NCBI RefSeq assembly: GCF_002008365.1
Contig: NZ_MRDL01000015.1
Coordinates: 186,001 to 250,000 of the forward strand
From: Rhizobium leguminosarum bv. viciae USDA 2370
Lineage (GTDB): Bacteria > Pseudomonadota > Alphaproteobacteria > Rhizobiales > Rhizobiaceae
Length of the DNA: 64,000 nucleotides
Direction of reading: 5' to 3'
Positions 5,034 through 14,996 of this stretch are shown piece after piece. Below the pieces are notes generated by a model that had not been told where the DNA came from, ran no database searches, and was given only the letters and a program-made list of their open reading frames with translations. Within the stretch, counting starts at the first letter, position 1, and the number at the start of each line of letters is the position of its first letter. The translations under genes and the position numbers were made by a program.

Positions 5034-5333
5034 CTATCCGACCTCTACCGCCTCCAGCACCCAGGCCGTTCTCTCTGCCAGTTCGGGAATCTTGGCCAGA
5101 TAGGCTTGATAATGGGGTGTCATGCGATGCACCTCGACGGCGGCGGCGTCCAGATAGAGTTCATCGAGCACGTATCGCTCGCCATGCGCCCGGTCGCACC
5201 AGACATCCCAGCGCAGATTGCCGGGTTCGGCCCGGCAAAGCGGTGCCATGCCAACAAGCAATGCTCGTAACTCGACGGCCTTTCCGAGATGAGCTGTCAG
5301 GATGGCTGTGATCTTGGTCGGCGACTGTGTCAT
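5034..5333 (-). CDS. Putative antibiotic-biosynthesis-monooxygenase (ABM) fold protein
   Basis: 99-residue protein starting MTQSPTKITAILTAHLGK. Pattern and size match the ABM/quinol-monooxygenase superfamily of small dimeric ferredoxin-like folds: a beta strand, then a helix (AVELRALLVGMAPLCRAEPG), then YVLDELYLDAAAVEVHR..PHYQAYLAKI, as in YgiN-like proteins. Members act on quinones or other electrophiles, or serve as heme-degrading enzymes; the substrate is unknown. The start at 5333 has AGGAGC about 8 nt upstream and is preferred to an ATG at 5444. It lies 115 bp downstream of the DJ-1/PfpI gene on the same strand and may share its transcript. Confidence 0.75.
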   Translation of the reverse strand: MTQSPTKITAILTAHLGKAVELRALLVGMAPLCRAEPGNLRWDVWCDRAHGERYVLDELYLDAAAVEVHRMTPHYQAYLAKIPELAERTAWVLEAVEVG

Positions 5334-5448
5334 ACAGAACGCTCCTGATGGAATGCATGAGGTAACTTGCTTGGGCGGACGAGACGTCGCGGGCCGGGAT
5401 AACAGCATAGAAGGCACGCCATCACCTTCCATGCCGTGTTCCATCAGA

Positions 5449-6249
5449 TCACGCCGAAACCGTCACCCGGTTGAGGGCCTCGACCAGTTTCGCCGCAAGA
5501 GGATGATCCGATCGCGGATTTTGGCCTGTGATCAGCTCGCGGTCCTCTATCACATGGGGGGAGAAGTCGACCGGGTTCGTCGTGACGTCGCCACCCGCCA
5601 TGCGCAATGCGTCTGGCATGTTGAAATAGAGCTTGCCATGAAGGACCTGTTCTTCGATCGGTTTCTCCTCACTGGCGGAGAACACCGTCATCTTATAACC
5701 GGCATACTGCCAGCCCCTAGCGAGTTCAGACGCTTCGGAAACATCGCCTGCAATCAGGGCAGCCCGATATTCCTTTGCGTGCGGCAGTGCGGCAAGCGAG
5801 GCGATCGGCCCGTGGCAAAGAAAGGCCGTGGGTTTCCGGCGAGCATGAAAGCGGCGGAGGATCTCGCCGAGATCGGCATCCTGCATAAGATCGACGGCCG
5901 GTGCCTGACCGCCGGGTACGAAGACGCCGGCATAACCATCGATCCCGTCTTCGATGACTGATCTCAATGTCCTGATATCGTTCATCGCCCGATGGTCGTC
6001 GAAAAAGGCGCGCCCGCGCTTGTGAGCAGCTTCGTCGCCGTCAAAATGCTGTGCCGCGTCCGACACGGGATCGATGTGCGGCTTGGTGCCGTCGGGCGTT
6101 GCCAACACGATCTCGTATCCGGCGGCAACAAGAGCCATGGCTGGCACCACGGTTTCGTTGAGATATTGGCCGGTTGGGCCAGTTCCACCGCCCTGAATTT
6201 CAATCCGGGTGGCATTCGACCCAACGACAAGAACGTTACCCTTGCTCAT
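5449..6249 (-). CDS. DJ-1/PfpI family protein (class-I glutamine amidotransferase-like, Hsp31-like)
   Basis: 266-residue cytoplasmic protein. The nucleophile elbow FLCHGP places the reactive cysteine at residue 145, followed by His146 as in the DJ-1/PfpI/Hsp31 superfamily. The flavodoxin-like opening strand is NVLVVGS and the strand before the active site is GVFVPGG. Family members act as glyoxalase III/deglycase, chaperone or oxidative-stress proteins. The neighbours (ABM protein, hydrolase, oxidoreductases) fit a role in reactive-carbonyl or redox stress, but that is inference. The start is the first ATG, with AAGGAGGATTC-type ribosome binding sequence 6-8 nt upstream. Confidence 0.85.
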   Translation of the reverse strand: MSKGNVLVVGSNATRIEIQGGGTGPTGQYLNETVVPAMALVAAGYEIVLATPDGTKPHIDPVSDAAQHFDGDEAAHKRGRAFFDDHRAMNDIRTLRSVIEDGIDGYAGVFVPGGQAPAVDLMQDADLGEILRRFHARRKPTAFLCHGPIASLAALPHAKEYRAALIAGDVSEASELARGWQYAGYKMTVFSASEEKPIEEQVLHGKLYFNMPDALRMAGGDVTTNPVDFSPHVIEDRELITGQNPRSDHPLAAKLVEALNRVTVSA

Positions 6250-6476
6250 AGAATCCTCCTTATTTGATGTGGTTAATTGGTGCCGTACGGCGGATGGTCA
6301 CGATGGTAGAGCCCTTCAGGGATGTCTGCAGGCCACCTTGGCTCCGCCTTCCGTAAGCATCCATTTCGCTTCGAAGCGTAAGGCTATAACGAGGGGTGGC
6401 ATCGTCTTATTCGCCTCTGTCGATCCGGATTTCAGTTGTTTCGCCCAAGCGAAAGAGGCGTGCTCGCCCTTGCCAC

Positions 6477-7232
6477 CTATTGGGCCGCCTTCACAATGAG
6501 ATCCGCTACCTCCTCGGGATGGGAGAGCATCGCCACGTGGCCGGAAGGTACTTCGATCATCTCCGCCTTTGCAGATTTCACCTGATCCCTTTGCATCTGG
6601 GGAGCGATGATCTGGTCCTGCGTCGCCACGACCATGAAAGACGGTTTGTCACGCCAGGCGGCATGGCTGACGGGCATGGTGGTGGCACGCACATGGAAAC
6701 GTCCCTGCACGACGGCAACGAGCCTCTGCTCGTCCGGGGAGAGGCCGGCCGCGAAGTACCTGGAAATGCCGTCATCGCTTATCTTCAGATACCCATCCTC
6801 GTCCTTGACGAATGTCTTCCGGCTTTCCTGGTCAGGGTATTTGGAGGCGACATCGACCAGCGATTGACCGGCATCAGGCGCGTAGGCGGCAACGTAGACC
6901 AGGGATTTCACCTTCTGGTCATCACCCGCTTCCGTGATGACTACGCCGCCCCACGAGTGACCGACGAGTACGATGGGTTCTTCGGCATCGCGGATCGCGC
7001 GCTTGGTGAAGGCCACGTCGCTCTCCAGGGACTCCAATGGATTTTGGACGGCGACAACTTTCAATCCGGCCTTTTCCAGAAGAGGGATGACTTTCTGCCA
7101 GGACGATCCGTCGGCGAAAGCGCCGTGAACAAGGACAACGGTCTTGGCTTTGAGATCCGCAGCGACCGCGGCGGGAGATGTGCTTGCGAACGCCACTAGG
7201 GCGCTGAAGATAAGTCCAAGGTTTCGGGACAT
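6477..7232 (-). CDS. Exported alpha/beta hydrolase
   Basis: 251-residue alpha/beta-fold hydrolase. The N-terminal 25 residues (MSRNLGLIFSALVAFAS...AAVAA) look like a Sec signal peptide, so the enzyme is probably periplasmic. Fold motifs: oxyanion strand VVLVHGAFADGSSW (residues 32-45), nucleophile elbow GHSWG with Ser93, probable acid Asp206 (TQDQIIAP) and His232 (SGHVAM). It resembles the salicylate-esterase/hydroxynitrile-lyase-like branch often annotated only as alpha/beta hydrolase; substrate unknown. Start at 7232 has GGAGAA upstream. It lies downstream of the truncated STAND regulator on the same strand, which may control it. Confidence 0.85.
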   Translation of the reverse strand: MSRNLGLIFSALVAFASTSPAAVAADLKAKTVVLVHGAFADGSSWQKVIPLLEKAGLKVVAVQNPLESLESDVAFTKRAIRDAEEPIVLVGHSWGGVVITEAGDDQKVKSLVYVAAYAPDAGQSLVDVASKYPDQESRKTFVKDEDGYLKISDDGISRYFAAGLSPDEQRLVAVVQGRFHVRATTMPVSHAAWRDKPSFMVVATQDQIIAPQMQRDQVKSAKAEMIEVPSGHVAMLSHPEEVADLIVKAAQ

Positions 7233-7453
7233 GCGAGTTCTCCGATCATTGATCTCGATGGCGACACGGGGAATAATCGACCAACCCAGCCTCGGACGCA
7301 TATTAATTGTGGTTAAATCCTGCGATTTTGCCGTGCTTAGTCGCGTGTTGGACTATTCGGGCTTTTTCTTTCGGATCCTTCGCCTATCGGGAACTGTCGA
7401 AGCCTGCGGCAGTCGTCCGTCACCGCCACAAACCCCGGAATTGCAAGGACGGC

Positions 7454-9004
7454 CTAAGACGCCCGGAGCTGCACCGTCTGTCCGCCATCCGAAGAGACAG
7501 CCATGCTTGCGCGGCACTGTTGAGGCGCTTGAACATGGTACAAAGACTGGCGTTGTTCGATGGGTGCGCGCTCCCCGGAGGCAAGGAGCTTGAACGCCGC
7601 ATAGGCTTTAGCGATGCCCGATAGCTTGAGGTGCGCAGGTCCTGTTCCCGGATGAAGTGAGAGGAGGGACTTGTCGATAAGATTGCCGATCGATTTGATG
7701 ATATCTGCCTGCTCGAAGTCATCATCTTCCACGACCGCGAGGGCAGCATCAACGGAGAACTCGCCCGGGAATACCGACAGTCGCCTGAATACCCGTTGAT
7801 CCATGTCGGATAAAAGAGCGTAACTCCAATCCATCATCGCTTCTGCGGTTTGGTGGCGTGGGTTGGCGTATCGGCTGCCCCTCCATCGCAAGGAGAGCTG
7901 GTTGTCCAACAGCTCCGCGACCCGATCTAGGCCGTAGGGGGCCATGCGGCTCGCCACAAGTTCTATCGCCAGCGGATTGCCGTCCAATCTCCGGCAAACA
8001 GCCGCTATTGCCGCTGCTTCCTCGTCGCCTAACGACTCCAGATAGCCGCCATCGACCGCACGTTCCACGAAAAGCTGAATCGCAGGCCAAAGTAGCGCCT
8101 GAGCGGCAGTCAAACGCCCTGTAGGCGGAGGAACACCAAGTGGCCGGAGAAGATATACGGCCTCGCCGGGCAAACGGAACGCTTCTCGGCTCGTGGCGAG
8201 AATATGCACACTGGCGGTACGCCTGAGCACCGAACTCACGATATCGGCCACGGTGTCAATAACGTGTTCGCAGTTGTCAAGGATTACGAGGGTGCCTCGT
8301 GGAGACAACTGACCGATGATGTCGCCGATGGCATCGCCTGCTGAAAAGGGGATCTCCAGAGCCGAGGCTACCGCTTCCAAGACGGCCGTTTCATCATCGA
8401 TGATGCCGAGATCGACAAAACACGCATGGTCAAACATGTGGAGGGCGTGCGCCACCAAGATGGCCAGAGTCGTCTTGCCGACCCCTCCTGCACCCACAAC
8501 GGTCACGAACCGGCGCTCAGCCACCATCTGCGAAAGCTTGGAAATATTCTCGTCTCGGCCGATAGGGTGGCTCAAACGAGGCGGAAAAGAGGTATTCGTT
8601 GCGCCGTCAGATCCATTGCAGCAAGCCTGATCGCAGCTCAAGGGCGCATACCTGTCCTCCGGCTCGGACGCCTCTTCCCATATGACGGGGGCGACGAAGC
8701 TGTAGCCGCGGCCCACCACGCTGACGATATAGCGATTACCGTTTTCGCCACAGCCGATTTCGCGCCTCAGATGCGTCATTTGCACTCTTATGTTGGAGGC
8801 TTCGACGTGGAGACCGGGCCATGCGAATGCCATGAGCTCCCCGTGAGAGAGAACCCGTCCATGATTTTGAACGAGAGCGGCAAGGACGTCGAAGGCGCGG
8901 CTGCCTATCGCAAGCAGATCGTCGCCTCGCCGGAGAACTCTTGCAGCCGGATTCAAGCGATATGGTCCGAACCCGAAATAGCCGTTCCCAGCGTGAGTTT
9001 CCAT
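7454..9004 (-). CDS. Winged-helix + STAND/NB-ARC ATPase regulator, short form lacking the C-terminal repeat domain
   Basis: 516 residues. Residues 8-107 form an OmpR/PhoB-type DNA-binding winged helix (FGFGPYRLNP...VVGRGYSFVAPV). A STAND-type NTPase follows: Walker A VGAGGVGKTT (170-179), Walker B LVILDNCEHV (239-248), sensor-1 ILATSREAFRL (268-278) and the GxPLA motif DGNPLAIELV (341-350), then a second winged-helix region. The similar gene at 9475 continues for roughly 450 residues of helical repeats; this one stops about 30 residues after the ASGER segment, so the sensor domain is missing. The start at 9004 has AGGGGA about 7 nt upstream. Likely an ATP-dependent transcription regulator of adjacent genes. 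Confidence 0.8.
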   Translation of the reverse strand: METHAGNGYFGFGPYRLNPAARVLRRGDDLLAIGSRAFDVLAALVQNHGRVLSHGELMAFAWPGLHVEASNIRVQMTHLRREIGCGENGNRYIVSVVGRGYSFVAPVIWEEASEPEDRYAPLSCDQACCNGSDGATNTSFPPRLSHPIGRDENISKLSQMVAERRFVTVVGAGGVGKTTLAILVAHALHMFDHACFVDLGIIDDETAVLEAVASALEIPFSAGDAIGDIIGQLSPRGTLVILDNCEHVIDTVADIVSSVLRRTASVHILATSREAFRLPGEAVYLLRPLGVPPPTGRLTAAQALLWPAIQLFVERAVDGGYLESLGDEEAAAIAAVCRRLDGNPLAIELVASRMAPYGLDRVAELLDNQLSLRWRGSRYANPRHQTAEAMMDWSYALLSDMDQRVFRRLSVFPGEFSVDAALAVVEDDDFEQADIIKSIGNLIDKSLLSLHPGTGPAHLKLSGIAKAYAAFKLLASGERAPIEQRQSLYHVQAPQQCRASMAVSSDGGQTVQLRAS

Positions 9005-9474
9005 ATTGGTTCCCCTCAATGGTTTTGCAATCGTAGGGCAGTTAATCCATATATATTCAGCTTCAATATTATGAGAGTTCGCTCCCAATGGGAGGTAAAA
9101 TCCGGTAAATATTGGCGTGGAATGGTTTGCCGCGGCAGAAACTTCGCGCCGGCGGTCCGAGACTTTACAGGCTGTAAGCAGTTATGCGCGACGGAGGCAC
9201 TGACCAGCAGACCTGTGCGGCGACGTTGTTTATTGATTTGAAGATCCAAGCATCGGGTGTTCCGTCGAGGAAAGACTGAACGGCGAGCGGTGGGCGCGGC
9301 CCTTAAAAATGAGGCAACTGGGGTCAGTTCGTCCGACAGGCCCACAGGCGGAAGGCAGACCCTCCCGTGTTCGTTCGCTTAGAGTGATGTTGAGATTGCC
9401 GCGTCCACCCGCGCGATAGTGACATTGATATCATTCTTGCGCCGGGTCGATCATCGGCACGCTAAGAGGAACAC
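9005..9474. other. 470-bp divergent intergenic region between two paralogous regulators
   Basis: It contains no convincing gene on either strand. It must carry the promoters of both the minus-strand regulator (start 9004) and the plus-strand one (start 9475). I could not identify consensus promoter hexamers or a clear operator palindrome by eye. The base composition is less GC-rich near the minus-strand start (TCCATATATATTCAGC around 9047). Confidence 0.5.
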
Positions 9475-12326
9475 ATGGTACCGACGGAACCGGATGATGT
9501 GGTGGCATTTGGTCCCTTTCGCCTTTACGGGGAGCATCGCCGTTTGTTTTGCGGTGCCGAAGAGGTTCAGCTTGGCGGTCGGGCAATGGAGATGCTCGTG
9601 ACCTTGGCCCGGAAGAAGGGTGAGTTGGTACATAAGGAGGAGCTGTACAATGCCGCGTGGCCCGGCATCTTTGTCCATGAAGCCAATCTGAAAGTGACGA
9701 TCGCTTCGCTTAGGCGGGCATTAAGGGAATACACTCCCACAGAAGACTATATCAGGACGTTCGTAGGCCGTGGCTACCGGCTGACCGATCAGGTCATTAC
9801 CGGAGAAATCCCAAAAATTGCGGATCTTCCCGTTGTGGCAAACACCCGATTTCCCGAATTGGCCACGGTTATCGGACGGGATGCCGAAATCGCTGAATTG
9901 CGAGCTAGGATTGCCGCCAACCGGCTGACGACGATCGTTGGCCCCGGGGCATCGGCAAGACAACGGTTGCAGTCGCCACAGTGCAACTGCTCGAAGACGA
10001 AGAGGGAGATCTCATCACCTTCATAGATTTCTCCCGAGTGGCCGGCGAGGAATTCGTCATCCCTTCAGTTGCGGCTGCGCTGGGCATCAGTTCAGGTAGC
10101 CAGGATCGCCTCGACGCGATCTCATCCATCCTCGCTCGAAGGAAGACCTTGCTGTTGCTGGACACGTGCGAGCATGTGCTCAATGCCGTTGCCCATCTCT
10201 GCGACGTCATTGTGGCAAACACAAGTGATGTGAGGATTCTGGCGACGAGCCGCCAGGCTCTCCGCGCGAAGCGAGAAGAGGTCTTCTGGCTTGCTCCTCT
10301 GGAAGTTCCGCCGCCTGACCATATCCATACAGCCGAACAAGTCCTCCGTTATTCCGCACCACAACTTCTCGTCGTACGAGCGTCCGAGAAAGGGAAATAC
10401 AAGACGGAGGATGGGGATGCATCTGCCGTTGCCGAGATCTGCAGGCGGCTAGACGGATCGCCTCTCGCTATAGAACTTATCTCATCCCGGCTCGGAAGCC
10501 GAAGTGCTGCTGATGTCCTCGAAGAACTTGACGATCGTTTCGCCACACTGGTCGGACGTGACCAGGAGGGACCGCTTCGTCAACAGACTCTGCTTGCGAC
10601 GATGCAGTGGAGCTACGCACTCCTTACGAAGAACGAGGCAGCCGTGTTGCGTGCCATCTCGATCTTCATGGGCACGTTCGATATGGATGAGGTTGTTTGC
10701 ATCGTTGTCCACCATGGTTTGGATCCAACGGTCGTCTTTGATGCCATTGCCGGCCTGCGCGCCAAGTCGATGCTGAGCGTCGAACAGATGTCAGGTGGTA
10801 TGCGATACCGGCTTCTCGACAGTACTCGAGCATTCGCAGGCAATCTGCTGGAAGCCGCGGGGGAACTGACCGCTGTGTCTCAGGCCCACGCCCGACTTGT
10901 GCTGGACATCTTCACTCGTGCGAATGCCGACCAGGCAAGACTTCCGACGCGGCAGTGGCATATCGCCTACGCCAGTCGTGCGGACGATTTGCGCAGGGCC
11001 ATCGGCTGGGCACTCTTTCTTCGCGCCGATCCGCTGCTTGGCATGCAGTTGGTGGCATCGGGATTGCCACTGTGGCATGAGTTGTCGTTGAGCGAAGAGG
11101 CCCGCAGCAACTGCGAACAGGCGCTCGTCGAGTTCGATCGGACTGGCTGCAGAGACACAACCCTGAAGCTCAAGCTGGTCGTCGGGCTCGCCGCAGTGAG
11201 CAGCTACATATCACCCAATGCGGAGAAGGCTATCAAGATCTTTGAAACAGCAATTCAGCTATCACGTCAGATCGGCGATAGTCGGGCCGGGTGCCAAGCC
11301 TTAGGCGCCCTGGCGAGATATCGGCTCCTGCCTGGCCACCAGACCGAAGCCCGGAAGACTCTCAGAGAATTGAAAGGGCTCGCCATGCGCTCCAATAATC
11401 GGGCGGCGCAGTGGGAGCATGAGCATCTTTGTACGGAATGGGAAATCATACGTTGCGAGTACCGGCCGGCGATTGCACGGTTGGAGAAATTGCGTCTGGA
11501 GTTGCAAAATACCGCCGATGGCACGGTTTCTCGCTTCGACCTCGATCCAAGGATCAGGACGGATACTATATTGGCCGCACTCTACTGGCTCGGATCGCGC
11601 AGGCCTGGGACTGGTTTGAATAGAGTTCAAGCTGCAGCGAGGGAGGCTTTGGAAGCCCGTCATGGATGGACGCTTATTTATTGCTACACTCACGGGGTGC
11701 TTTTCGTGCTGTGCGAATGTCAGGAGCATGCTCTAGCCAGGGAATATGCCGCGCTACTAAAGGATACGATCTTCCGTCACGGCATGCCGGCATGGATTCC
11801 GGTCGCAAGCTGCTACATTGAGGCGCTTGACGCGCTTTCAGGCGTTCGAAAGGACCCGGATGGACTAATGTCAGCGTTCGATGGGCTCCGCACGGGCCTC
11901 AAGCAGATCGGACGTCATGTTTATTATGCGCTTTTGATAAGAGCCCTCTATGCGAACGGGCACATGGATGAGGGCGTACGGATTCTCGACTATTTGTTTG
12001 AAGTGGGACCGCAACGTTCGATGGTGCCCGAGCTGCTACGTCTTAGGGCTGTCAAAGAACGATCGGTCGGCCGCGACGAAGAAGCACTTTCCACCTTGCG
12101 GGGATCTTTGACAGTGGCGGAGGAAAATGGAGCATGGGCGTGGCAAATTCGCTGCGCAACTGATCTTGCTGCTCTGCTTAGAGACCGATTGCAGATCGAT
12201 GAGGCCAAGAGCGTTCTCGAGCCAGTGTATGGCCAGTTCATCGATGGGTTCGATACTCCGGACTTGCAGAGAGCCCGAAACCTTATGACGGAGCTGCAGG
12301 ATCTTGGACGACTTCCGGGCTCATAG
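9475..12326 (+). pseudogene. Winged-helix + STAND ATPase + helical-repeat regulator, frameshifted in Walker A
   Basis: Intact this would be about 950 residues: OmpR-type winged helix (residues ~8-103), STAND NTPase, winged helix and a long alpha-helical, TPR-like C-terminal region. Frame 1 runs from ATG 9475 (AAGAGGAAC upstream) to 10026, but ends in a nonsense tail after ..TTIVGPG. Translation then resumes in another frame as ..GKTTVAVATVQLL. Inserting one G in the run at 9946-9949 restores a perfect GPGGIGKTT Walker A. Later motifs are intact: Walker B TLLLLDTCEHVL, sensor-1 RILATSRQAL, DGSPLAIELI. Either a recent inactivating deletion or a homopolymer sequencing error. The 3' end overlaps the convergent oxidoreductase gene by 6 bp. 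Confidence 0.75.
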
Positions 12327-14054
12327 CGAGTTGCCAGACGCATCCTCAAACGCCACCGATCGATCCGCTGTTTCGCGGCTCACCGGATTGCTCGCCAGCC
12401 AGCCGTGGATCGAGTGGACCACGACTGATCCTTCGCCGACGCTGGAGGCAACGCGCTTGACGGATTTGGCTCGGACGTCGCCGACCGCGAATATGCCCGG
12501 GACGCTGGTCGCATAGGGCGAACCGTTCGGTGCGCCGTCGTGGTCGTAGCCAGTCAGGATGAAACCCCGATCATCGAGTTCGACGCAACCGTCCAGCCAG
12601 TCCGTGTTTGGGACAGCCCCGATCATCAGAAAGAGGTTCGATATCATATGTTCGGACTCTTCCTTCCCGGGTTGTCCCCATCGAACCGATGAAAGGTAGC
12701 CTTCACCGGCAAGCGAGGTGATTTCGCTGCGGGTATGTAGGGTAATCCGCGGGGACTGCATGATGCGACCGACAAGATAGTCCGACATAGCGTCCGAAAG
12801 TCCGTCACCCCGGACGAGGAGATGCACATGACGCGCCTTTGCCGACAGGAAGATCGCGGCCTGCCCGGCAGAGTTTCCACCGCCCACCACCACGGCTTCC
12901 GTGCCTTCGCAAAGCTGCGCCTCGATCGACGTCGCCGCATAGTGAATTCCCTTCCCCTCGAAGCGTTGGGACTCGGGAATATCCAGTCTTCGGTAGCGAG
13001 CGCCGGTCGCGACAACGACAGATCGGCCAAACACCACGTTGCCACCTTCCAAATGCACCCCAAACGGATAGCAAGTGCAATCGAGACGCCGCGCCGCCTC
13101 GGCGACGGCGAAACGTGCGCCGAACTTCTGAGCCTGTATTTGCGCTCGCCGGGCGAGATCCTGTCCCGAAATACCCATTGGAAATCCGAGATAGTTCTCG
13201 ATGCGCGAACTCGTGCCCGCCTGTCTGCCAGGCCCAACCGCCTCTATGACCAGCGTGTTCAGTCCTTCGGATGCGGCATAGACCGCCGCGGCGAGACCGG
13301 ATGGCCCGGCACCCACGATAACCACGTCATATGCATGCGAAGAGTTCAGCCGCTCCGTGATCCCGAGAGCCTCGGCAAGATCATGGTTGGTCGGCTGAGT
13401 GAGTACCCTGACGCCGTTGAGAACAACGATCGGCAGGCTATCGGCGTCGGCATGGAATGTCTCCATTGCAGCCCGTGCATCGTGGTCGACGTCAGTGTCG
13501 AGGCAGCGATAGGGATAGCCGTTCCTTTCCAGGAAAGTCTGAATGCGGACCGTATTTCCGGAGCGGCAACTGCCCACGATCACGGTGCCGCCCTCGGCGA
13601 ATTCCAGAAGTCTGGCGCGCCTCAGTATAAGCGCACGCAAAATGATCTCTCCGATGTCCGGCTCGGCGTTCACCAGCCTGAGAAGCGATACGCGGGAAAG
13701 GCGGATGACAGACGTGGAAGCCGTGGTTTGCGCGCATACCAGAACCGCCCGTCCGCTTAGATGATGCAACTCTCCAGTGAATTGATTGACCTGGTGCCTG
13801 GCGACAATCGCGTGGCCCCCGTGTCCGTCGCTTTCGAACACGTCGACTGACCCGTTCAGAATGATGAAGAAATCGACCTCCCGATCACCGACTTCATACA
13901 AGTATTCACCGCCGTCGAATTGATCCCTCCGTCCGAACGGGGCAATGCGTGCCATCATCTCGGGCGTGAGGCGAGGAAACGCCTCGCCAGGTATCTCCCT
14001 TAGTTCGGCGGAAATCGGGCTATTGGCTGTGCTGAAGTCACCGCTATAGGCCAT
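12321..14054 (-). CDS. cNMP-binding / glutaredoxin-like / thioredoxin-reductase-like FAD oxidoreductase
   Basis: 577 residues in three parts. A cyclic-nucleotide-binding fold spans residues ~35-150, with FDGGEYLYEVGD and a cassette-like FTGELHHLSGR (92-102). A glutaredoxin/thioredoxin-like segment at 157-232 begins VIVGSCRSGNT and keeps only one cysteine. A thioredoxin-reductase-like flavoprotein runs from 241 to the end: FAD motif GAGPSG (248-253), NAD(P)H motif GGGNSAG (391-397) and GDV (525-527). The redox CxxC of true thioredoxin reductases is replaced by AATS (373-376), so dithiol transfer is unlikely; it may be a ferredoxin/flavodoxin reductase or NAD(P)H sensor. It overlaps the UBP zinc-finger gene by 11 bp, implying translational coupling. 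Confidence 0.85.
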   Translation of the reverse strand: MAYSGDFSTANSPISAELREIPGEAFPRLTPEMMARIAPFGRRDQFDGGEYLYEVGDREVDFFIILNGSVDVFESDGHGGHAIVARHQVNQFTGELHHLSGRAVLVCAQTTASTSVIRLSRVSLLRLVNAEPDIGEIILRALILRRARLLEFAEGGTVIVGSCRSGNTVRIQTFLERNGYPYRCLDTDVDHDARAAMETFHADADSLPIVVLNGVRVLTQPTNHDLAEALGITERLNSSHAYDVVIVGAGPSGLAAAVYAASEGLNTLVIEAVGPGRQAGTSSRIENYLGFPMGISGQDLARRAQIQAQKFGARFAVAEAARRLDCTCYPFGVHLEGGNVVFGRSVVVATGARYRRLDIPESQRFEGKGIHYAATSIEAQLCEGTEAVVVGGGNSAGQAAIFLSAKARHVHLLVRGDGLSDAMSDYLVGRIMQSPRITLHTRSEITSLAGEGYLSSVRWGQPGKEESEHMISNLFLMIGAVPNTDWLDGCVELDDRGFILTGYDHDGAPNGSPYATSVPGIFAVGDVRAKSVKRVASSVGEGSVVVHSIHGWLASNPVSRETADRSVAFEDASGNSL

Positions 14055-14358
14055 CACAAAACCTCGGAATCGGCCCGCGCCGCGGCGTTTGATCGGGAAG
14101 CACGACGAACTCTTCGTCGACGTAGCACCAGCCCCATCCCTCCGGCGGATCGTAGCCTTCGATGATCGGATGGGCCGTGGCGAAATAATGCGCGGTCGCA
14201 TGTCTACCTGGCGAGTTGTCACAGCATCCGACATGCCCGCAAGACCGGCACAGCCGCAAATGTACCCATGCCATGCCGGATGCCAAGCATTCCTCACATC
14301 CCAGGGATTGAGGAACGACATTTGAAATGCCCAGCCGATGATTGCAGGACTGTGACAT
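14044..14358 (-). CDS. UBP-type zinc-finger protein
   Basis: 104-residue protein that is essentially one ZnF-UBP domain, the fold that binds the ubiquitin C-terminus in eukaryotic deubiquitinases and HDAC6. Candidate zinc ligands: C5, C21, C24, C37, C40, C45, H53, H57 and H63, in CEEC, CRSCGHVGCC and GRHATAHY. Bacterial members have no known ubiquitin partner. Start at 14358 is chosen because AGGAG is 6 nt upstream; an ATG 18 bp earlier lacks this. It is the first gene of a pair whose second cistron, the FAD oxidoreductase, begins inside it, which suggests that the two products work together. Confidence 0.85.
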   Translation of the reverse strand: MSQSCNHRLGISNVVPQSLGCEECLASGMAWVHLRLCRSCGHVGCCDNSPGRHATAHYFATAHPIIEGYDPPEGWGWCYVDEEFVVLPDQTPRRGPIPRFCDGL

Positions 14359-14996
14359 CTTTTCTCCTAACGACATCCGGCGACTTACTTTCGGTCATCG
14401 CCGAGTCATCCAACGGGGAATGCTCGACGAAAGCCTACCTGCGTCCGCCTGCGGCAGCCCGTTAAACAGCGCTTATCATCGTGAAATACTGGGAAACGGC
14501 GAAACTGCCGCTGGCCATATACGGAGGACGTTCGTGAAAACAACGGGCCGGCCGGTCGCCTTCAACCTGCATAGTCACAGATAACGGTCGGCAAGTGATC
14601 AAAACCGAAGGACCTTTCATCAGCCACGAAGGACTTTGCTAATTCGAGCAAGGGCGATGAGATGCCAGATTTCGCGCACATTCACCCCATTTAGCGCGCG
14701 CCGCCGCGAGCAAATGTTAACCTGCATCCACTCCAAACGACGGGAACGCATCGCCCGGACGCTCCGGCTTGCCGCCCGTGAACATGGAAAGTCCGGCAGG
14801 ACGGCGCGCTGATCGGCAGCGTCATCATCTTCGACGGCGCGCTCCCCGTCGTCCGCGCACGGCGGTTGATTAGGTGCCGTGGGAGCAAGCGCTGGATCGG
14901 TGGAGCAGGACATCGCTGTCGCCGAGGCCGCCATATCCGCCGTCGACCTCAATCCAGCAGATACGCATTTCGCCACTCAGGAAAGGAGCAAACAAG
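14359..14996. other. 638-bp region with no supported gene
   Basis: This stretch lies between the divergent UBP zinc-finger gene and the SDR gene and should contain both promoters. Short open frames on either strand (for example minus 14620-14976) show biased, low-complexity translations and no family resemblance. A 32-codon plus-strand frame from 14714 has an arginine-rich product that could be gene debris. I see no tRNA, IS end or strong terminator. Confidence 0.45.

Follow-up and report, generated by a model that had tools for sequence, protein, structure and literature searches.

A ZnF-UBP finger gene overlapping that of a thioredoxin-reductase-like flavoprotein without CxxC in Rhizobium leguminosarum

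Described relatives and the Rhizobium locus

ZnF-UBP fingers are best known for reading ubiquitin. In ubiquitin-binding fingers, an arginine of the binding pocket contacts the C-terminal carboxylate of ubiquitin. The zf-UBP domains of USP20 and USP33 are reported (PMC13376213, 2026) to bind [KR]xxL[NED] motifs and not the ubiquitin C-terminus. In two further studies, zf-UBP is listed as one of the mini-proteins conserved in bacteria and archaea, with chimeras as its main pattern (PMC2602986), and described as a RING-like binuclear treble clef (PMC4506424). The closest solved relative of the finger described here is 2ida, a bacterial zf-UBP protein that is homologous over its full length (E 1.4e-46) and carries the PDB label 'Hypothetical protein'. 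The solved fingers of USP16, USP33, USP49, USP20 and HDAC6 rank far behind. We take 2ida to be RPA1320 of Rhodopseudomonas, for which a literature search returned no paper.

Thioredoxin reductases carry HRRxxxR as their NADPH motif. In AhpF, a thioredoxin-like part precedes a thioredoxin-reductase-like core and both parts contain CxxC; we know of no cNMP-binding-like domain in AhpF. Thioredoxin-reductase-like ferredoxin/flavodoxin-NADP reductases are not known to have CxxC or extra domains, and they do pass electrons on. In the KefF-KefC system of glutathione-gated K+ efflux, a separate protein, the ancillary NAD(P)H flavoprotein KefF, controls the antiporter KefC. To our knowledge, no finger is part of the described KefF-KefC system.

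The window analysed here is a stretch of 64,000 nucleotides from R. leguminosarum bv. viciae USDA 2370. It contains a finger gene and a flavoprotein gene that overlap and have the following features.

14044..14358, minus strand: stand-alone ZnF-UBP protein, 104 aa from the likely ATG (zf-UBP profile, homology to 2ida, AGGAG)
14218..14220, minus strand: codon of D53, at the position of the USP16 Arg (invariant in 29/29 finger rows)
14044..14054, minus strand: 11-nt overlap of the finger and flavoprotein genes; ATGGCCTATAG contains the flavoprotein start and the finger stop
12321..14054, minus strand: flavoprotein with cNMP-binding-like, thioredoxin-like and thioredoxin-reductase-like parts, 577 aa (translation, Pfam, AlphaFold model)
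13668..13922, minus strand: cNMP-binding-like domain, residues 45-129 (Pfam cNMP_binding 34.8 bits, cut-off 27.5)
13365..13586, minus strand: thioredoxin/glutaredoxin-like segment, residues 157-230, without CxxC (LP.V conserved; AlphaFold strand/helix order)
12429..13331, minus strand: thioredoxin-reductase-like FAD/NAD(P) domains, residues 242-542 (Pfam Pyr_redox_2 112.7 bits; VIA-align)
12927..12938, minus strand: AATS replacing CxxC, residues 373-376 (alignment of 78 sequences)
12909..12911, minus strand: codon of C382, in E[AGS]xxC (C382 in 77/78 sequences, the window's included)

The finger gene has two candidate starts. An in-frame upstream ATG at 14376 gives a protein of 110 aa, and the finger residues are numbered on this longer form. 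The second ATG at 14358 is likely the better start and has a Shine-Dalgarno-like AGGAG ahead of it (14368-14364, minus strand); it coincides with the end coordinate given in a preliminary description of the locus. The same description had placed the flavoprotein start 11 nt within the ZnF-UBP gene, and this is confirmed by the finger stop at 14044. The flavoprotein ATG follows a GAGG at 14065-14062 (minus strand) by 7 nt. A promoter and terminator scan gave one promoter site and no terminator site, about no more than shuffled sequence yields.

Domains of the flavoprotein and binding surface of the finger

The three-part architecture proposed earlier for the flavoprotein is upheld by Pfam (cNMP_binding, Pyr_redox_2) and, for the thioredoxin-like segment, by the AlphaFold model. 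The model (alignment of 45, pLDDT 86.9, pTM 0.85) is poorly predicted at residues 1-20, at about 281-300 and in the last 17 residues, and well predicted elsewhere. Conservation counts refer to 78 distinct sequences and include the window's protein. The phosphate-binding cassette of cyclic-nucleotide-binding proteins relies on a Glu and an Arg. In the cNMP-binding-like domain, E95 is found in 73 of the 78 sequences, with D in the other 5, and R102 in 57; the loop between E95 and R102 looks short. In the model, the strand and helix order at about residues 157-230, judged by eye, is thioredoxin-like; the Pfam match to Glutaredoxin (residues 170-216) stays at 13.9 bits under a cut-off of 22.9. The segment had been called single-cysteine, which does not hold: it contains C163 and C184 and no other cysteine, and neither is conserved. 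Position 163 is most often P (21), A (18), E (8), S (6) or D (6), and position 184 most often V (34) or L (15). One active cysteine in this segment was thus ruled out as a candidate.

The thioredoxin-reductase-like core lacks the redox cysteines throughout the family. AATS indeed stands in the window's protein where thioredoxin reductase has CxxC, and none of the 78 flavoproteins has Cys at either of the two positions; the first is occupied by W in 57 sequences, A in 18, S in 2 and G in 1. E378, a few residues further on, is invariant (78/78) and precedes the nearly invariant C382, near which no second conserved cysteine was found among the 78 sequences. The family conserves the FAD- and NAD(P)-binding motifs but not HRRxxxR.

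The core resembles low-molecular-weight TrxB in its FAD and NAD(P) domains, its GxGxxG-type motifs and its fold. VIA-align, with rows spanning flavoprotein residues 236-559, superposed the model on 5mh4 with Z 33.7 and an rmsd of 2.0 A over 301 residues, and on 5u63_B with Z 33.8, so the two-domain FAD/NAD(P) fold is present. The flavoprotein differs from TrxB in having no CxxC, an incomplete HRRxxxR and additional N-terminal cNMP-binding-like and thioredoxin-like parts. The top Foldseek matches by E-value were to AhpF (1hyu, 4o5q, 4xvg), which has the same succession of thioredoxin-like part and core; in contrast to AhpF, segment 157-230 of the flavoprotein has no redox CxxC. The AhpF equivalog TIGR03140 scored 161.9 bits and did not reach its cut-off of 502.9. 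The fold is also common to the thioredoxin-reductase-like ferredoxin/flavodoxin-NADP reductases (Z 28.2 to 8c16), with a sequence match to 8c16 (E 1.4e-13) weaker than the best match (5.4e-48). KefF is flavodoxin-like, unlike the thioredoxin-reductase-like flavoprotein. The structures 5mh4 (flavin-reducing) and 5mjk (flavin-oxidising) are conformers of one enzyme, the Lactococcus thioredoxin reductase, and the model is much further from 5mjk (rmsd 7.3 A over 299 residues). As weak evidence, the flavin-reducing conformer of the model would fit a hydride passing from NAD(P)H to FAD with no second half-reaction to follow.

The finger is a clear zf-UBP member by Pfam (45.7 bits, cut-off 22.7). Its AlphaFold model (pLDDT 59) was too poor for use, and its surface was read from 29 aligned rows, the window's finger plus a choice of 28 from 80 named loci. 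C11, H13, C27, C30, C43, C46, C51, H59, H63, H69 and C84 are invariant in all 29 rows and presumably are the zinc ligands. D87 is equally invariant, at a position that we take to be Cys in HDAC6, as are W37 and W83, presumably the aromatic residues of the pocket. The Arg of the USP16 GCGR motif aligns with D53. When an actinomycete finger is aligned with USP33, the position of D53 falls on a Glu of USP33. USP20 and USP33 thus share with the bacterial finger an acidic residue at the USP16 Arg position (Glu as seen in USP33, Asp in the bacterial finger), and differ in that their zf-UBP domains are parts of deubiquitinases, the bacterial finger being stand-alone, and in a second acidic residue (D59/D90) without counterpart in the bacterial finger. 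From its spacing of four to an Asp, we infer that the aligned Glu is E86 of USP33. Because an invariant Asp replaces the USP16 Arg, and because the acidic fingers of USP20 and USP33 bind internal motifs, the bacterial finger is probably no ubiquitin-tail reader. On the same grounds a plain ubiquitin-tail reader was discarded as a candidate, and the recognition of protein tails suggested in the preliminary description finds no support. A search for E2 and ubiquitin gave no match in the window genome, but none in 14 control genomes either, and absence is not implied.

Co-occurrence, geometry and rearranged parts

A genome survey of the two families had been set beforehand as a check, and co-occurrence was not rare. 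In 299 Pseudomonadota genomes, with at most 20 finger and at most 4 flavoprotein candidates scored per genome, zf-UBP was found in 10 genomes (11 genes), and each of the 11 fingers has a full-length flavoprotein on its own strand no more than about 500 bp away. Full-length flavoproteins occur in 29 of these genomes and 19 of the 29 have no zf-UBP, therefore the finger is not essential to the enzyme. With 19 of 289 finger-less genomes encoding the flavoprotein, co-occurrence has a Fisher p of 1.5e-11 with kinship ignored, a value that overstates independence because six of the ten finger genomes belong to one genus. Among 149 genomes of Actinomycetota, the phylum of the genome with locus L126, 31 carry zf-UBP, 32 the flavoprotein (E 1e-55 or better) and 20 both; 11 of the 31 finger genomes have no flavoprotein at this threshold.

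The named finger loci are the best 80 of 592, picked by similarity to alphaproteobacterial fingers and biased accordingly, and a few overlap the 299-genome sample. A flavoprotein is nearby in 53 of these 80. The two genes share a strand within 500 bp in 46, with the flavoprotein before the finger in 41 (including three incomplete frames, L085, L092 and L103) and after it in 5; in 7 they are on opposite strands within 3.1 kb, 4 of them within 500 bp and 3 at 1.1-3.0 kb. The other 27 of the best 80 have no flavoprotein in their flanks, some of which stop at contig ends. A flavoprotein is found elsewhere in the genome for 21 of these 27, and the six genomes without any are, according to their titles, metagenome-assembled. 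Spacing, measured from the nearest start codon ahead of the finger in 39 measurable flavoprotein-then-finger pairs, shows overlapping or abutting genes in 19 and distances within 20 nt in 27. A tree of 107 flavoproteins was built by a quick maximum-likelihood run (linkage labels assigned by hand, no shuffle control, several rows identical or long-branched and the window protein on a long branch). On this tree, order or orientation must have changed at least 6 times among the 67 linked rows, and linkage with the finger must have been gained or lost at least 13 times. The pair persists while gene order differs between lineages. The adjacency recurs across families and phyla and is not chance, and the pairing very probably reflects a real partnership.

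The preliminary description had spoken of a two-component system. The two families do pair, but the term is too narrow, as versions with kinase-like, receiver and antiporter parts exist. In four actinomycete genomes, the flavoprotein, a cNMP-binding-HATPase_c protein and the finger stand in a row, with the kinase-like protein and the finger fused in one of them. That genome (G422, L193) has a lone finger, a flavoprotein of receiver, thioredoxin-like and thioredoxin-reductase parts, and a cNMP-binding-HATPase_c-finger fusion. In the rows L194, L195 and L196 (Pfam was run on L194 and L196), the kinase-like gene sits between flavoprotein and finger, with 30-54 nt between the matched kinase and finger stretches. 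In most flavoproteins of Actinomycetota, the match to the window's protein begins at about residue 150; upstream of this point, Pfam recognised a receiver domain in the flavoproteins of L193 and L196 and none in that of L197. A 584-residue frame at L165 was rejected as a kinase-finger fusion, since Pfam found only zf-UBP in it and the neighbouring kinase-like protein is in another frame.

Antiporters form another set of neighbours. The finger is fused C-terminally to Na+/H+-exchanger-type antiporters in Phycisphaerae (L125), Deinococcus (L130) and actinomycetes (L156, L174, L177), following a TrkA_N domain in L125 and L130. In four Rhizobium genomes (L244-L247), a finger-KefF-KefC row, with KefF identified by Flavodoxin_2, faces a flavoprotein 2.7 kb away. 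L245 and the named L071 (Rhizobium sp. 16-449-1b) are one genome, counted once. The facing flavoprotein of L244 is truncated at the edge of the sequence examined and those of L245-L247 belong to the window's clade, whose antiporter link comes from just four genomes of a single genus. A Rhodococcus plasmid carries dnaK, grpE, a J protein gene, cbpM, clpB, trxA, finger, flavoprotein and DUF1931 in a row, with overlapping finger and flavoprotein genes. None of the tested neighbours was found within about 6 kb of 25 of 39 Actinomycetota fingers, some with flanks that stop at contig ends, and the incomplete gene tables of plasmid fingers of Variovorax (L129), Oscillatoria (L131) and Paraburkholderia (L132) list no such neighbour. 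A greedy choice of ORFs and clustering over 82 loci placed the flavoprotein and the finger as the top two neighbour clusters; 13 more clusters occur in at least 4 of the 82 loci, and several of these look like antisense ORFs.

Proposed role and rival readings

We suggest, tentatively and at somewhat less than even confidence, that the pair is a finger-docked redox sensor or non-thioredoxin reductase acting in a stress response. The two overlapping genes would form one translationally coupled unit, in which the flavoprotein moves hydride from NAD(P)H onto FAD. With both redox cysteines gone, the flavoprotein should be unable to pass electrons as thioredoxin reductase does, and its role would therefore be to sense redox state or to reduce some partner that is not thioredoxin. 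Its activity might be set by the cNMP-binding-like domain at the N-terminus, in whose place some actinomycete relatives have a receiver; the nucleotide gating of the preliminary description is a putative feature of this domain. The ZnF-UBP finger would be the docking subunit, binding a short, probably basic, internal motif and thereby holding the flavoprotein on its target; the position of D53, where motif-binding USP33 has Glu, suggests such docking. The proposal draws further on the co-occurrence, the short spacings, the persistence of the pair through rearrangements and, as Rosetta-type evidence, the kinase-like and antiporter arrangements of the finger. The many flavoproteins without a finger, the actinomycete fingers without tested neighbours and the missing second acidic residue of USP20/USP33 speak against it. 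The targets may serve redox, electrophile or ion stress, as the neighbours include Kef-type antiporters with KefF, cNMP-binding kinase-like proteins and one chaperone row.

The flavoprotein might instead be a catalytic reductase for a dedicated electron carrier (thioredoxin, ferredoxin or quinone), in which C382 would be the redox thiol at a new position and the finger would bind the carrier or stabilise the enzyme. Such an enzyme is an unlikely though serious alternative. The conservation of C382 and E378 speaks for it, as does trxA directly before the finger and flavoprotein genes in the Rhodococcus chaperone row, and FNR-type relatives without CxxC do pass electrons on. However, C382 has no conserved partner cysteine nearby, and no carrier gene was recognised by eye among the neighbour clusters found in at least 4 loci. 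It is highly improbable that the database name is right and the protein is an ordinary thioredoxin-disulfide reductase to which a domain has been added. The Rhodococcus record is annotated in this way and the fold matches thioredoxin reductases with Z 33, but CxxC is missing from 78/78 sequences and the thioredoxin-disulfide reductase equivalog TIGR01292 scored 221.2 bits, not reaching its cut-off of 343.45.

Mere co-regulation of finger and flavoprotein in a stress island, without physical contact, is quite unlikely. Among the best 80 of 592 loci, opposite strands in 7 of the 53 nearby cases and separate locations in 21 genomes would agree with it, and so would the 25 of 39 actinomycete fingers without tested neighbours. 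Gene overlaps and short spacers, the occurrence of more than one gene order, and the finger fused to a kinase-like protein beside the flavoprotein all argue against it. A finger that reads free C-terminal tails, ubiquitin-like or other, is still less plausible: its membership in zf-UBP is clear and W37 and W83 are retained in every row, but D53 occupies the place of the USP16 Arg.

Beyond the finger-docked redox sensor or reductase, bacterial ZnF-UBP fingers at large could be ubiquitin-free docking adaptors of modular redox signalling, a reading that we consider possible but somewhat unlikely. The interchangeable parts would be the cNMP-binding-like domain, the receiver, the histidine-kinase-type ATPase, the finger, the CxxC-less flavoprotein and the Kef-type antiporter with KefF. 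The flavoprotein would read NAD(P)H or oxidant state, and this state would control K+/H+ exchange or a phosphorelay via the finger.

Despite their reputation as ubiquitin readers, ZnF-UBP fingers are kept by bacteria beside one flavoprotein family. A literature search found no publication on the pair, and an earlier mention in Burroughs et al. 2011 is conceivable. If the pair is a docking-plus-redox unit, bacterial fingers gain a function and show which roles the finger may have had before or outside ubiquitin. Such a unit would also explain a family of CxxC-less flavoproteins that databases name 'thioredoxin-disulfide reductase'. In the window genome, zf-UBP occurs in two genes, and a flavoprotein of the same three-part architecture directly follows each; the two pairs fall in different clades of the flavoprotein tree.

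The second pair in the same genome

The genome of the window holds another ZnF-UBP finger gene paired with a flavoprotein gene:
L003 (surveyed locus) 5138-7271, minus strand: second finger-flavoprotein pair
Its flavoprotein is 45% identical to the one in the window and belongs to a different clade. The gene upstream of this pair appears, by eye, to encode a GntR-type regulator.

Regulators near the flavoprotein gene in the window

Window 9475-12326, plus strand: winged-helix (Trans_reg_C) regulator with TPR part, in two overlapping frames
Window 7454-9088, minus strand: second regulator, apparently akin to the first as judged by eye
The break between the two frames of the Trans_reg_C/TPR regulator (9475-10026 and 9981-12326) falls close to a stretch that, judged by eye, resembles its P-loop. 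The last 6 nt of the regulator are shared with the end of the flavoprotein gene.

Antiporter and chaperone neighborhoods

Fingers are also found C-terminally fused to antiporters of the Na+/H+-exchanger plus TrkA_N type, and one lies at the end of a chaperone row:
L125 6336-8261: antiporter-finger fusion, Phycisphaerae
L130 6246-8279: antiporter-finger fusion, Deinococcus
L128 696-10390: chaperone row with finger and flavoprotein, Rhodococcus pyridinivorans plasmid
Four genomes from the same genus as the window (L244-L247; L071 shares its genome with L245) each have a finger-KefF-KefC row that faces the flavoprotein. The plasmid row dnaK-grpE-J-cbpM-clpB-trxA closes with finger and flavoprotein, followed by a DUF1931 gene.
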